64,000 nucleotides of DNA, from assembly GCA_017625935.1 (NCBI GenBank), contig JAGALA010000030.1, positions 1 through 64,000 of the forward strand, read 5' to 3'. Positions 4,343-49,305 of the stretch are shown here, piece after piece (the first letter of the stretch is position 1; every line of letters starts with the position of its first letter). The stretch is from Clostridia bacterium. GTDB taxonomy: Bacteria; Bacillota; Clostridia; Oscillospirales; CAG-272. The notes under the pieces were generated by a model, which worked only from the letters and a program-made list of their open reading frames with translations, did no database searches and was not told the origin of the DNA. The position numbers were made by a program, and so were the translations under genes.

Positions 4343-4431
4343 TGCTATACTTATTGATAGTTTATATTAAGTTTATATTATTTAATATAATATTAAAGGA
4401 AATAGGCGCGCGTGCGCGATGATACTATAAT
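4343..4431 (+). promoter_or_regulatory. Probable promoter and leader region of the activase gene
   Basis: Three -10-like boxes are present: TGCTATACT (4343-4351, extended), TATAAT at 4386-4391 and TATAAT at 4426-4431. None has a convincing -35 at 17 bp. A GCGC-rich hairpin at 4406-4417 lies about 8 nt after the start that the 4386 box would give. Which box is used cannot be decided by eye. Confidence 0.4.
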
Positions 4432-19565: not shown

Positions 19566-21857
19566 ATGGACGTAAAAAAGCTGATACTTGATACGGTTGA
19601 TGGACAGGGCTACGTTCCGCTCTCACCGTATGATATGCACAGTATGCTTTTGCCGCTTGGCGTTGACGAGAGTGAGTTTTGGCGCGCACTTTCCGCGCTT
19701 GAGCTTGACTACGAAATACAGTTCACCAAAAAGGGAAAAATCGCAAAGGGCACGGATATGGGCTTTTTCAAGGCGAAAATCAGCGCCTCATCGCGTGGAG
19801 ATTTCGGCTTTGCCGTAACCGACGACGGTGAATTTTTCATTCCGCCGAGATTTATGCGCGGCGCTTACCACGGCGACACGGTCGTTATAAAAAGGATAGA
19901 CTATCTCTCAAAATACTACGGCAAGGGTAACGAGGCAGAGGTTGTCGAAATACTTGAGCGCGGTGCTAACGAAGCTGTCGGCACGCTCACCGTTTACGGA
20001 AACGGCAGACGGTTTGTCGCATACGTCACCCCCGAAAACGAGCGCTTGCACCTGAAAATCAAGGTGAACAGCAAAAATTTGGTGGCGAGTGACGGTGACA
20101 AGGTCGTTGTAAAAATAAATCAATACCCCAAGGATGAAAACGATTTTGCGCTCGGAGAAATTACCGAGGTGCTTGGCAGGAGCGACTCCTTAGAGGGCAA
20201 CTACCGCGCAATTTTGCACTCAAACGGAATTGCCACCTCGTTTAGAGACGAAACGGTGGACGAGGCTCGTGCGGTTTCAAGCGAGCCGCTTGATATAACG
20301 GGCCGCCTTGATTTAAGAAACGAAACGGTATTTACAATAGACTCAGCCGATGCAAAGGACCTTGACGACGCAATTTCGTTGAAAATTACCGAAAACGGAT
20401 ACGTCCTCGGCGTTCACATCGCGGACGTTTCTCATTACGTGCGTCCGGGCTCTTATCTTGACAAGGAAGCAATCGAGCGCGGCACAAGCGTATATTTCGT
20501 TGACAAGGTTGTGCCGATGCTTCCGCGTGAGCTTTCAAACGGAATCTGTTCGTTAAACGGAGGCGAGGATCGTCTGACGCTTTCCTGCTTCGTCACACTT
20601 GACAAAAGCGGCACTATGATTTCAAGCGAGATAAGAAAGAGCGTAATTAATTCCAAGGTGCGCGGTGTTTATGCGGAGCTGAACGACATTATCGCAAACG
20701 GCGAAAATAGCGAATTTTTCCCGAAATACAGACACGTAATGGACGATTTTTCGAAAATGATGGAGCTTTATCGCATCCTTCGCCAAAGGAGCGAGCAAAA
20801 AGGAGCAATGGAGCTTGAGAGTGATGAGGTTAAAATCGTTCTTGACGAAAACGGCTTGCCGACAAAAATAGAGAAGCGCGAGCGCGGCGAGAGCGAGCGA
20901 CTTATTGAGCAATTTATGCTATGTGCAAACGAGGCGGTTGCCACCTATATGTACAATGCGTGCGTGCCGTGCGTTTTCCGCGTGCACGAGGAGCCCGACC
21001 GCGAAAAAATAAACTCCTTTGCAATTTTTGCAAAAAATCTCGGTGTTGACGTTTCCCTCTTGCGCACGAAAAATACGATAACTCCAATGCAGCTGTCCCG
21101 CGTGCTTGCAAGCTCCGAGGAAAAGGGATACTCTGCAATCGTTTCAAGTGTGCTCCTTCGCGCACTTATGAAGGCGAAATATTCCGCCGTTCAGCGCCCA
21201 CACTTCGGCTTGAATACGGAGTATTACTGCCATTTCACCTCACCGATAAGACGTTATCCCGACTTAAGCGTGCATAGAATTTTGAAAGCATTCTTGGACG
21301 GAGAGCTTGACGGTGCGTCAATTGAAAAATACGAGCGCTTTGCAAATTTAAGCGCGGAGCTTTCAAGTGAAAACGAGGTTAAAGCAATCCACGCCGAGCG
21401 CGATATTGAGCAGCTCTACAAGTGCGTATATATGCAGGCGCAGGAGGGAGAGGAAATGGAAGCGGTTATTTCATCCGTTGCCTCATTCGGCTTGTTTGCA
21501 AAAACCGAGAATCTTTGCGAGGGCTTAATCCCTGTTGACTCCCTTGGCGGCGGCTTCTATTACGACAAGGACAACTACACCTTGTCACGCGGAAAAACAA
21601 CCTACCGCTTAGGTCAAAAAGTCAAAATCCGCGTTGACTCCGTCGATATTGCGCTTCGCCAAATCAATTTTGAATTAGTGCGTGAGAAAAAGCAGGAAGA
21701 TACAGAGGGTGAGGAAGCAACCGTGAAAAACGAGATCTCCTTGCGTAATAGCGCGAACGCAAAGGAAAGCGCTCAAAGGGACAGAGCCCACCGACGCACA
21801 AGCGCCTCAAAAAAGCACACATTGAGAAAGGGCACGCAAAGAAAATACCGAAGATAA
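19566..21857 (+). CDS. rnr: Ribonuclease R (RNB-family 3'-5' exoribonuclease)
   Basis: Processive 3'-5' exonuclease that degrades structured RNA and takes part in trans-translation and rRNA quality control. It is 763 aa. Order seen: N-terminal winged-helix (LILDTVDGQGYVPLSPYDMH), cold-shock-like OB domains (RGDFGFAVTDDGEFFIPPRF), the RNB catalytic domain with IDSADAKDLDDAISL near residue 258 (the acidic Mg ligands), HFTSPIRRYPDLSVHR, and an S1 domain from about 625. A basic, probably disordered tail ends RKGTQRKYRR. AAAAGGAG precedes the ATG. It lies downstream of secG but has its own upstream region. Confidence 0.96.
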   Translation: MDVKKLILDTVDGQGYVPLSPYDMHSMLLPLGVDESEFWRALSALELDYEIQFTKKGKIAKGTDMGFFKAKISASSRGDFGFAVTDDGEFFIPPRFMRGAYHGDTVVIKRIDYLSKYYGKGNEAEVVEILERGANEAVGTLTVYGNGRRFVAYVTPENERLHLKIKVNSKNLVASDGDKVVVKINQYPKDENDFALGEITEVLGRSDSLEGNYRAILHSNGIATSFRDETVDEARAVSSEPLDITGRLDLRNETVFTIDSADAKDLDDAISLKITENGYVLGVHIADVSHYVRPGSYLDKEAIERGTSVYFVDKVVPMLPRELSNGICSLNGGEDRLTLSCFVTLDKSGTMISSEIRKSVINSKVRGVYAELNDIIANGENSEFFPKYRHVMDDFSKMMELYRILRQRSEQKGAMELESDEVKIVLDENGLPTKIEKRERGESERLIEQFMLCANEAVATYMYNACVPCVFRVHEEPDREKINSFAIFAKNLGVDVSLLRTKNTITPMQLSRVLASSEEKGYSAIVSSVLLRALMKAKYSAVQRPHFGLNTEYYCHFTSPIRRYPDLSVHRILKAFLDGELDGASIEKYERFANLSAELSSENEVKAIHAERDIEQLYKCVYMQAQEGEEMEAVISSVASFGLFAKTENLCEGLIPVDSLGGGFYYDKDNYTLSRGKTTYRLGQKVKIRVDSVDIALRQINFELVREKKQEDTEGEEATVKNEISLRNSANAKESAQRDRAHRRTSASKKHTLRKGTQRKYRR

Positions 21858-21858
21858 T

Positions 21859-21888
21859 AGCATAATGCTCCAAGCGGAGTATTATGCT
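21859..21888 (+). terminator. Long hairpin after rnr
   Basis: AGCATAATGCTCC pairs with GGAGTATTATGCT (one G-T wobble) around AAGC, directly after the rnr stop. No T run follows, so it may protect the 3' end rather than terminate. Confidence 0.5.
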
Positions 21889-21889
21889 A

Positions 21890-21973
21890 AGTGATGTTGC
21901 CTTCGGCAATGATGTTCACTGCGTGAATGATGTTGTGCCTTTAGCACAGTGTGCAAGCATCACATTATACATC
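21890..21973. repeat. Array of three small hairpins with TGATGT spacers
   Basis: Units TGATGT plus TGCC-ttc-GGCA, TGATGT plus TCAC-tgc-GTGA, and TGATGT plus TGTGC-cttta-GCACA stand in tandem. The array is closed by GTGATG (21891-21896) pairing with CATCAC (21958-21963), so it could fold as a multi-branched element. The following bases up to 22070 are AT-rich with nothing recognisable. Confidence 0.6.
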
Positions 21974-22071
21974 GTTTTTTGTTGTTATTTTATAAATTTT
22001 AGCATTCATATTTGTTAATTTCTGTTAAAATACCAAAAAATCGTCAAAACTGAAAAAAATTAAAAAAAATA

Positions 22072-22100
22072 TTCCATTTTTATAAATTATGTGTTATAAT
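22072..22100 (+). promoter_or_regulatory. Extended -10 promoter of ppdK
   Basis: TGT followed by TATAAT at 22095-22100; the -35 position (TTCCAT, spacer 17) is poor. The predicted leader begins with two GC-rich hairpins: TGCGCG with CGCGCA (22108-22126) and GCGCAT-aca-ATGCGC (about 22134-22148). Confidence 0.65.
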
Positions 22101-22188
22101 AGCACTGTGCGCGCATATGACGCGCAAACACTCGCGCATACAATGCGCATATAACAATTGCTAAATTATTTATGGAGGTACTTAAGAG

Positions 22189-24822
22189 ATGAGTACAAAG
22201 AAGTATGTTTACCTTTTTTCAGAAGGTAACGCAAAGATGAGAGAAATTCTCGGCGGTAAGGGTGCTAACCTTGCTGAAATGACACACATCGGTCTTCCTG
22301 TTCCACAGGGCTTCACAATTTCTACTGAGGCTTGTACACAGTACTACGAGGACGGCAGACAAATCAACGATGAAATCCAAGCACAAATTATGGAATACAT
22401 TGACAAGATGGAGGGCATCACAGGCAAGAAGTTCGGTGATAAGGAAAACCCACTTCTCGTTTCCGTTCGTTCAGGCGCTCGTGCATCAATGCCCGGTATG
22501 ATGGACACAATCCTTAACCTCGGTCTTAACGAAGAGGTTGTTAATGTAATCGCTGAAAAGTCAGGCAACGCTCGTTGGGCTTGGGACTGCTACAGAAGAT
22601 TTATCCAAATGTACTCCGACGTTGTTATGGAGGTTGGTAAGAAGTACTTTGAGGAGCTCATCGATAAGATGAAGGAAGAAAAGGGTGTAACTCTCGACGT
22701 TGAGCTTACAGCTGAAGACTTAAAGGAGCTTGCAAACCAATTCAAGGCAGAGTACAAGGCAAAGATCGGCACAGACTTCCCATCTGATCCTAAGGAGCAA
22801 TTAATGGGTGCTGTTAAGGCAGTATTCCGTTCATGGGATAACCCACGTGCTAACTACTACAGAATGCAAAACGAAATCCCATATTCTTGGGGTACCGCTG
22901 TTAACGTACAAGCAATGGCTTTCGGTAACATGGGTGATGACTGCGGTACAGGTGTTGCATTTACTCGTGACCCCGCAACAGGCGAAAAGAAGCTCATGGG
23001 TGAGTTCCTTACAAACGCACAGGGCGAGGACGTTGTTGCAGGTGTTCGTACACCAATGCCAATTTCAGAAATGGCTAAGACATTCCCTGAGGCATATAAG
23101 CAATTCGTTGAGGTTTGCAATATCCTTGAAAACCACTATAGAGATATGCAGGATATGGAATTTACTGTTGAACACGGTAAGCTCTATATGCTCCAAACAA
23201 GAAACGGTAAGAGAACAGCTGCTGCTGCTCTTAAGATCGCAGTTGACCTCGTTAACGAGGGTATGATTTCTAAGGAGCAGGCTATCCTTATGATCGATCC
23301 TAAGCAGCTCGACGCACTTCTCCACCCACAATTCGACGCTAAGGCTCTTAAGGCTGCTACACCTGTTTCAAAGGCACTTCCTGCTTCACCCGGAGCTGCT
23401 TGCGGTAAGGTTGTATTCACAGCTGAGGATGCAGTTGAAGAGGGCAAGAAGGGCGAGAAGGTTATCCTCGTTCGTCTTGAAACATCACCTGAGGATATCG
23501 AGGGTATGCACTACTCACAAGGTATCTTGACTGTTCGTGGCGGTATGACATCACACGCAGCCGTTGTTGCTCGTGGTATGGGTACTTGCTGTGTATCAGG
23601 TTGCGGCGACATTAAGATGGACGAAGAAAACAAGAAGTTCGTTCTCGCCGGCAAGACATACGTTGAAGGCGACTACATCTCACTCGACGGCTCAACAGGT
23701 AACATCTACGGTGAGGCTATTCCTACCGTTCCTGCTACAATCGGCGGCGAGTTTGGTACAATCATGGCTTGGGCTGATGAGTACAGACAGCTCCAAGTAA
23801 GAACAAATGCTGACACACCTAAGGACGCAGCTCAAGCAAGAGCATTCGGTGCTGAGGGTATCGGTCTTTGCCGTACAGAGCATATGTTCTTCGAGCCTGA
23901 AAGAATCGGCGCATTCCGTGAAATGATCTGCGCTGACAGCGTTGAAGAGAGAGAAGCAGCTCTTGCTAAGATTCTCCCAATGCAACAAAGCGACTTCGAG
24001 AAGCTCTACGAGGCACTTGAGGGTAACCCTGTTACAATCCGTTTCCTCGATCCACCGCTTCACGAGTTCGTTCCTACAACTGAAGAGGATATCGCTGCTC
24101 TTGCAGAAACACAAGGCAAGACAGTTCAAGATATCAAGGCTCTTATCGAATCACTTCACGAGTTCAACCCAATGATGGGTCACCGTGGATGCCGTCTCAC
24201 AGTAACATATCCTGAAATTGCAGTAATGCAAACAAGAGCTGTTATCCGTGCGGCTATCGCAGTTAAGAAGAATCATCCTGATTGGAACCTCGTTCCTGAA
24301 ATCATGATCCCATTGGTTGGCGAATACAAGGAGTTCGTATTCTGCAAGAAGCTCGTTGTTGCTGCTGCTGACGAGGAAATCTCAAATGCAGGCGTTGAGC
24401 TTAAGTATGAAGTTGGTACAATGATGGAAATTCCACGTGCTTGCTTGACAGCTGATGAAATCGCTAAGGAAGCTGAGTTCTTCTGCTTCGGTACAAATGA
24501 CTTAACACAGATGACATTCGGCTTCAGCCGTGATGACGCTGGTAAGTTCTTGACAGCATACTACGAGAGCAAGATTTACGAAAACGATCCATTTGCAAGA
24601 ATCGACCAAAACGGTGTTGGTAAGCTTATGGATATGGCAGTTGATATGGGTAAGGCAGTTCGTCCTGAAATGCACATCGGTATTTGCGGCGAGCACGGCG
24701 GCGACCCAACATCTGTTGAATTCTGCCACAGAATCGGCCTCAGCTACGTTTCATGCTCACCATTCAGAGTTCCGATTGCACGTCTTGCTGCTGCACAGGC
24801 TGCTATTAAGAACCCTCGCTAA
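22189..24822 (+). CDS. ppdK: Pyruvate, phosphate dikinase
   Basis: Interconverts PEP and pyruvate with AMP/PPi and ATP/Pi through a phosphohistidine. At 877 aa it has the usual length. Order: N-terminal ATP-grasp (KGANLAEMTHIGLPVPQGFT, SVRSGARASMPGMMDTILNL), the swivelling phosphohistidine domain with GGMTSHAAVVARGMG (His near residue 456), and the PEP/pyruvate barrel (GIGLCRTEHMFFE, NPMMGHRGCRL, FGTNDLTQMTFGFSRDD, GICGEHGGDP with the catalytic Cys). Codon use is strongly biased, like nifJ, and suggests high expression. With PFOR it connects PEP to acetyl-CoA. GGAGGT lies about 11 bases before the ATG. Confidence 0.98.
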   Translation: MSTKKYVYLFSEGNAKMREILGGKGANLAEMTHIGLPVPQGFTISTEACTQYYEDGRQINDEIQAQIMEYIDKMEGITGKKFGDKENPLLVSVRSGARASMPGMMDTILNLGLNEEVVNVIAEKSGNARWAWDCYRRFIQMYSDVVMEVGKKYFEELIDKMKEEKGVTLDVELTAEDLKELANQFKAEYKAKIGTDFPSDPKEQLMGAVKAVFRSWDNPRANYYRMQNEIPYSWGTAVNVQAMAFGNMGDDCGTGVAFTRDPATGEKKLMGEFLTNAQGEDVVAGVRTPMPISEMAKTFPEAYKQFVEVCNILENHYRDMQDMEFTVEHGKLYMLQTRNGKRTAAAALKIAVDLVNEGMISKEQAILMIDPKQLDALLHPQFDAKALKAATPVSKALPASPGAACGKVVFTAEDAVEEGKKGEKVILVRLETSPEDIEGMHYSQGILTVRGGMTSHAAVVARGMGTCCVSGCGDIKMDEENKKFVLAGKTYVEGDYISLDGSTGNIYGEAIPTVPATIGGEFGTIMAWADEYRQLQVRTNADTPKDAAQARAFGAEGIGLCRTEHMFFEPERIGAFREMICADSVEEREAALAKILPMQQSDFEKLYEALEGNPVTIRFLDPPLHEFVPTTEEDIAALAETQGKTVQDIKALIESLHEFNPMMGHRGCRLTVTYPEIAVMQTRAVIRAAIAVKKNHPDWNLVPEIMIPLVGEYKEFVFCKKLVVAAADEEISNAGVELKYEVGTMMEIPRACLTADEIAKEAEFFCFGTNDLTQMTFGFSRDDAGKFLTAYYESKIYENDPFARIDQNGVGKLMDMAVDMGKAVRPEMHIGICGEHGGDPTSVEFCHRIGLSYVSCSPFRVPIARLAAAQAAIKNPR

Positions 24823-35793: not shown

Positions 35794-35851
35794 AAATATG
35801 TATATACCTTTCGCGTGCGCGCGTGGGTGTGCGCACATTACTTCAAATTAA

Positions 35852-35880
35852 AGTATATCATACGCGCGCAAATAAATCAA
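35852..35880 (-). promoter_or_regulatory. Promoter of the ABC-GldG-DUF4340-GH94 operon
   Basis: On the minus strand TTGATT (35875-35880), 17-bp spacer ending in TGA, and TATACT (35852-35857). The leader carries a hairpin GTGCGC (35831-35836) with GCGCAC (35815-35820) about nine bases after the predicted start. Confidence 0.78.
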
Positions 35881-48737: not shown

Positions 48738-48763
48738 TGTGCGCAAGCATCCTTTGGCGCACA
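48738..48763 (-). promoter_or_regulatory. 5' hairpin abutting the ribosome binding site of the GH78 gene
   Basis: On the minus strand TGTGCGC (48757-48763) pairs with GCGCACA (48738-48744). The hairpin starts about four bases after the predicted transcript start and ends exactly at AGGAGG. Confidence 0.6.
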
Positions 48764-48865: not shown

Positions 48866-48918
48866 TTGACAAGAGAAAAAATATGGTTTAAAATAAACAT
48901 ATGAACAATTGCTCATAT
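48866..48918 (+). promoter_or_regulatory. Promoter and ArsR-type operator of the metal efflux unit
   Basis: TTGACA at 48866-48871, 17-bp spacer, TAAAAT at 48889-48894. The 20-bp palindrome at 48899-48918 (ATATGA, one variable base, CAATTG, one variable base, TCATAT) covers the start site. It has the TGAACA-type half-sites of SmtB/CzrA operators. Bound repressor would block initiation. Confidence 0.82.
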
Positions 48919-48984
48919 AAGCAAACGTGCGAATATACATAATTTGAACGTGCAAAATCAAAAATGAGCATAAAAGGAGAAAAA

Positions 48985-49305
48985 ATGGACAATTCAATTT
49001 CAAAAATCCAAGGCGCTATCACCCGTAATAGCGAGCTTTTTGAGGAGCTTGCGAGTCTTTACAAGATTTTCGGTGATGCATCTCGCGTTAAAATTCTTTG
49101 CGCGCTCACACAAAGTGAAATGTGCGTTAGCGAAATCTCCGCATTTTTGTCAATTTCTCAATCTGCGGTTTCGCATCAGCTTCGCATCCTCAAAACAAGC
49201 AATCTTGTTAAGACGCGCCGCGATGGCAAGAATATTATTTATTCATTAACCGATGAGCATATAAAAACAATTATTGACTGTGGTATGGAGCACATTGCAG
49301 GATAA
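48985..49305 (+). CDS. ArsR/SmtB-family metal-responsive repressor
   Basis: A 106-aa winged-helix repressor that releases DNA on metal binding. HTH: LYKIFGDASRVKILCALTQS, EISAFLSISQSAVSHQLRIL, and the wing TRRDGKNIIYSLTD. The C-terminal helix has D-x-H followed ten residues later by H (DEHIKTIIDCGMEH), close to the alpha-5 zinc/cobalt site of SmtB/CzrA; the final ligand position is Gly. MCVSE lies where alpha-3 sensors have ELCVCDL, but only one Cys remains. It probably senses zinc or a similar ion. The ATG at 48985 has AAAAGGAG upstream. An operator lies over its promoter and an efflux ATPase follows. Confidence 0.92.
   Translation: MDNSISKIQGAITRNSELFEELASLYKIFGDASRVKILCALTQSEMCVSEISAFLSISQSAVSHQLRILKTSNLVKTRRDGKNIIYSLTDEHIKTIIDCGMEHIAG

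Follow-up and report, generated by a model that had tools for sequence, protein, structure and literature searches.

The predicted mRNA of ppdK, the gene for pyruvate phosphate dikinase (PPDK), begins with a hairpin at its extreme 5′ end. By comparison of orthologous leaders, this hairpin is genuine and is retained in each species of the genus in which the promoter can be read. The gene lies in a stretch of 64 000 nt of a Clostridia bacterium (contig JAGALA010000030.1), termed here the window. Sequence comparison supports the position, structure and conservation of the hairpin and its restriction, within the genus, to ppdK; the start site is a predicted one, placed from the spacing to the −10 box, and the stabilizing function is putative. 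The hairpin probably protects or regulates this one metabolic mRNA.

Among the glycolytic enzymes of gut clostridia, PPDK is a key reversible one, and to our knowledge little is known of how its expression is set. A 5′ stem-loop at the exact predicted mRNA start across a genus offers a compact and testable element with which to study how stable mRNAs are in uncultured anaerobes. With the ppdK leaders comes a natural collection of about 24 variants that preserve its structure.

The ppdK leader and its 5′-terminal hairpin

The ppdK gene (22189..24822, plus strand) encodes a protein of 877 aa with the Pfam domains PF01326, PF00391 and PF02896. Its −10 box, TATAAT, is at 22095..22100 (plus strand) in the extended −10 form TGTTATAAT, and the position of this box relative to the hairpin is the same in 24/24 genus leaders. 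The −10 spacing places the predicted +1 at G22107. The inverted repeat TGTGCGCG CATATGA CGCGC is read from the window sequence at 22106-22125, and the complete 5′-terminal hairpin, which continues with AA ACA, spans 22106..22130 (plus strand); its core, TGTGCG..CGCAAACA, is conserved in the genus. A second hairpin, GCGCAT ACA ATGCGC, is found at 22134..22148 (plus strand) by sequence reading, folding and comparison of the genus leaders, and the near relatives G015 and G018 have at the equivalent place a second hairpin of other sequence. The remainder of the leader (22149..22188, plus strand) is an AU-rich, mostly unpaired spacer with a strong Shine-Dalgarno sequence (GGAGG, 22174-22178), conserved by alignment as TTATTTATGGAGGTACTT in the genus. 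Both the alignment and the centroid fold place GGAGG outside the hairpins, in an AU-rich stretch, which leaves the ribosome-binding site free.

Two other readings of the leader were considered and rejected. Transcription attenuation is unlikely because no intrinsic terminator was found in 21850-22200. The short upstream open reading frame at 22117-22164 (ATG ACG CGC ... TAA) was set aside because it has no Shine-Dalgarno sequence and its ATG is missing from near relatives, G015 and G018 among them. Further upstream, at 21900-21950 of the window and 3′ of the RNase R gene, there are short inverted-repeat units (TTCACTGCGTGAATGATGTT); similar units occur in intergenic DNA of relatives (L113, L154).

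Orthologues were identified by protein searches in 29 genomes of the genus and their leaders were then extracted, with extra contigs added for ppdK; the 24 genus genomes referred to here are those with a readable ppdK promoter. In 24/24 of these leaders GTGCG, GTACG or GTGTG follows the −10 box at a distance of exactly 6 nt, and the predicted ppdK transcript therefore starts with that sequence; G at +1 and T at +2 are invariant. Minimum-energy folds show the first nucleotides paired in a 5′-terminal hairpin of 15-53 nt in 23 of the 24, with the stem beginning between −1 and +2 of the start as inferred from the −10 spacing. A frequent form of the element is TGT-GCG-(inner pairs)-insert-CGC-AA-ACA. 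The insert measures 3 nt at its shortest (G027) and about 37 nt at its longest (G008, G023), and inserts often form stems of their own (e.g. G023, G008, G012, G025).

Base changes that keep pairing are found at several positions of the minimum-energy folds: G-C 18, G-U 1 and A-U 2 at +3; C-G 12, U-A 6 and G-U 2 at +6; and G-C 8, C-G 4, A-U 2 and G-U 2 at +7. In a hand-cut alignment of the arms (nine rows), five of the eight pairs are invariant, and 42 of 500 shuffles attain the observed covariation score; thus sequence conservation and pairing are not fully separable in the core. A duplex test of the arm against downstream sequence in the ppdK leaders gives a combined p of 7e-5 when relatedness is ignored, and a leader's own duplex partners are better than swapped ones (p 0.009). 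Single hairpins seldom surpass dinucleotide shuffles (p <= 0.05 in 5/20).

The element is specific to ppdK within the genus. The pattern TGTGCG N3-33 CGCAAACA has 21 matches in the 29 genomes, nine of which precede ppdK (9/29 genomes); the 12 matches elsewhere compare with 11 for a reversed control. A pattern match in G014 does not concern ppdK. TATAATN6GTGCG was also considered as a general promoter type of the genus and rejected, as its 56 matches, of which ~13 belong to ppdK, represent at most a slight excess over the 28 of a reversed control. The ppdK leaders are more structured than others, with a median z of −1.32 in the genus, −1.52 in other genera of the family and −1.09 in other clostridia, compared with −0.35 and −0.36 in control leader sets; relative to the −0.35 controls, p is 0.0006 for the genus and 0.008 for the other family genera.

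Outside the genus the picture is mixed. In other genera of the family, ppdK 5′ hairpins are frequent and of different sequence, and several leaders have no hairpin. Of sixty ppdK leaders taken from other families of the class, most have no GTGCG, and a hairpin is often missing too. Across 80 additional clostridial loci (562 kb), a −10 box followed after 5-7 nt by GTGCG occurs eight times, and seven of these are ppdK leaders, several of them from Lachnospiraceae (Blautia, Roseburia and a Eubacterium sp.). The Eubacterium leader carries TGTGCG..CGCAAACA itself. Blautia leaders have GTGCG in an apparently unpaired state, an observation for which a role in structure alone does not account. A different hairpin, CCGTA..TACGG, is situated ~8-11 nt past the ppdK −10 box in several Ruminococcus-type leaders (L025, L034, L035, L089, L026).

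Look-alike hairpins in the window and the genome

The original prediction grouped the ppdK hairpin with three others as a GTGCGC-type 5′ element common to unrelated mRNAs. All four GC-rich inverted repeats are present, although that of the activase gene has a stem of only 4 bp. GTGCGC/GCGCAC precedes an ABC transporter operon (35815..35836, minus strand), TGTGCGC/GCGCACA precedes a GH78 gene (48738..48763, minus strand), and the weak activase stem is GCGCGCGTGCGC (GCGC GCGT GCGC; 4406..4417, plus strand). With the most likely −10 boxes as reference, placement at the predicted transcript start applies to ppdK only; the hairpins of GH78 and of the ABC operon begin farther in, at about +5 and about +9, respectively. 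Placement of the activase element is ambiguous, as it lies 14 nt past one TATAAT yet upstream of a second (4426-4431). Taken singly, the four folds do not differ notably from dinucleotide shuffles (z −0.61 for ppdK, −0.60, −1.64 and, for the activase stem, +0.17).

Conservation in orthologous leaders likewise holds for ppdK and not for the rest. In up to 29 genus genomes, the GH78 hairpin is missing from all relatives, even from the leaders of 86-87% identical orthologues, and the activase hairpin is absent as well. At the ABC operon it is sporadic: CGCG palindromes occur close to the equivalent place in a few relatives, and most have none. From these comparisons, the ABC, GH78 and activase hairpins are lineage-specific and lie outside any shared element.

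Other conserved sequences were observed in these two regions. ABC operon leaders of the genus (L134-L161) keep a TATACT-TTAATTTGTAATATTATGT block just 3′ of the −10 box (35837-35860 of the window, minus strand). The palindrome ATATGAACAATTGCTCATAT is located at 48880-48985, between GH78 (minus strand) and an ArsR/SmtB gene (48985-49305, plus strand), and is also found upstream of GH78 orthologues in four relatives (L174, L179, L182, L185). Its neighbours are the ArsR/SmtB regulator and a heavy-metal P-type ATPase, and it looks like a candidate metal-sensor operator.

The genome (2.08 Mb, 61 contigs) was surveyed by pattern searches and by a 380-kb sample, which consists of the window and 20 further stretches (about 18% of the genome), with open reading frames and promoters called by simple rules of our own. 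GTGCGC N2-14 GCGCAC occurs at three genome sites, two of them in the window, versus five for the reversed pattern. The scan of leaders against shuffles that had been proposed was performed on the sample and reveals no excess: 3/101 leaders have a 5-bp GCGC-type stem, where shuffled leaders give 1.5, and a count of three is reached in 40 of the 200 shuffle sets. Between genes, the sample contains mildly more GTGCGC than expected from dinucleotides (14 versus 5), but this falls short of a leader element. A genome-wide class of GTGCGC hairpins is not supported by the exact pattern count, the leader shuffles or the orthologue comparison, and neither is the proposed general stabilizer or binding element. 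What is supported is a 5′ hairpin element of ppdK alone, which in 24 genomes keeps a strict position and changes in ways that preserve its structure. The case illustrates that look-alikes of a motif within a single window can hint at a genome-wide element where the genome has none.

Proposed function of the ppdK hairpin

On balance, the hairpin is best viewed as a gene-specific 5′ stem-loop of the ompA/aprE stabilizer type that shields the 5′ end, a reading of moderate confidence. The ppdK transcript would start at G22107 and fold at once into the 5′-terminal stem-loop, with the unpaired AU-rich spacer and strong Shine-Dalgarno sequence left free downstream. In Bacillus, mRNA is stabilized by a Shine-Dalgarno sequence or by a hairpin placed at or close to the 5′ end (PMC3997798). 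RppH prefers single-stranded 5′ ends, and pairing of the 5′ end in stabilizing leaders blocks both RNase J and pyrophosphohydrolases of the RppH type (PMC3997798). The base-paired ppdK 5′ end may similarly be a poor substrate for an RppH-type pyrophosphohydrolase and for the 5′-3′ exonuclease RNase J. Because it would be poorly attacked by these enzymes, the message for this central glycolytic enzyme would be longer lived, as with the ompA, aprE and ermC leaders.

The main rival to 5′-end protection is sequence recognition by a dedicated factor. An RNA-binding protein, sRNA or ligand might recognize the +1 GUGCG and the CGC-AA-ACA core and control ppdK expression; this is rather unlikely, even with a core conserved beyond the needs of pure base-pairing and with GTGCG placed 5-7 nt past the −10 box in seven ppdK leaders of other clostridia, several of them Lachnospiraceae, against a single other occurrence in 562 kb. 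GTACG and GTGTG variants within the genus argue against such recognition, as do the sister-genus hairpins of unrelated sequence (L237, L238, L247) and the absence of an Rfam match for the leader. The wider proposal of an undescribed, ppdK-specific regulatory RNA with this same core, common to the genus and Lachnospiraceae and tying the fate of the ppdK mRNA to a protein, sRNA or metabolite dedicated to it, is likewise rather unlikely.

The constraint might instead act on transcription, with the initially transcribed sequence (G at +1, U at +2) tuning initiation, e.g. to the GTP level. The invariant 6-nt spacing and the constant G and T in 24/24 leaders would fit, but the conserved 3′ arm CGCAAACA and the paired variable inserts are left unexplained, and the proposal appears quite improbable. 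Functionless GC-rich palindromes arising by chance in AT-rich leaders would account for the GH78 and activase hairpins and probably for that of the ABC operon, where there is neither genome-wide excess nor conservation; positional conservation in 24/24 leaders rejects this for ppdK, and as a general explanation chance is very unlikely. Least probable is a DNA operator bound by a dimeric repressor: the inverted repeat just 3′ of the −10 box is at a usual operator position, and LacI-type operators near transcription start sites are known in C. phytofermentans (PMC5171806), but half-sites 3 to about 37 nt apart across orthologues are incompatible with a fixed dimer geometry.

Comparison with known leader RNAs

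Rfam cis-regulatory leaders and riboswitches resemble the ppdK leader in that each is a conserved structured leader of one gene. The ppdK leader differs in having no Rfam match above chance: with Rfam 15 covariance models the best scores are 16.8 and 12.9 bits, far under the cut-off, and no family reaches its gathering score. It also differs in that neither a terminator nor an alternative structure sequestering the Shine-Dalgarno sequence was seen. The only Rfam match in the window is a ribosomal protein L10 leader (RF00557; 38738-38889, minus strand; 53.1 bits). No description of a ppdK leader RNA was found in the open literature.

The closer likeness is to the stabilizers of ompA in Escherichia coli and aprE in Bacillus subtilis (reviewed in PMC3997798): there, as in ppdK, a stem-loop at the very 5′ end is combined with an unpaired spacer and a strong Shine-Dalgarno sequence. 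As in these systems, the host genome itself encodes RNase J and RNase Y. The ppdK element departs from them in being gene-specific, with a sequence-conserved core, inserts of very variable length and, in many members, an asymmetric AA bulge; the likeness is one of anatomy only. From this anatomy we infer that the ppdK mRNA may be stabilized in a similar manner, and on the same anatomical basis its leader can be placed with the known 5′ stem-loop leaders.
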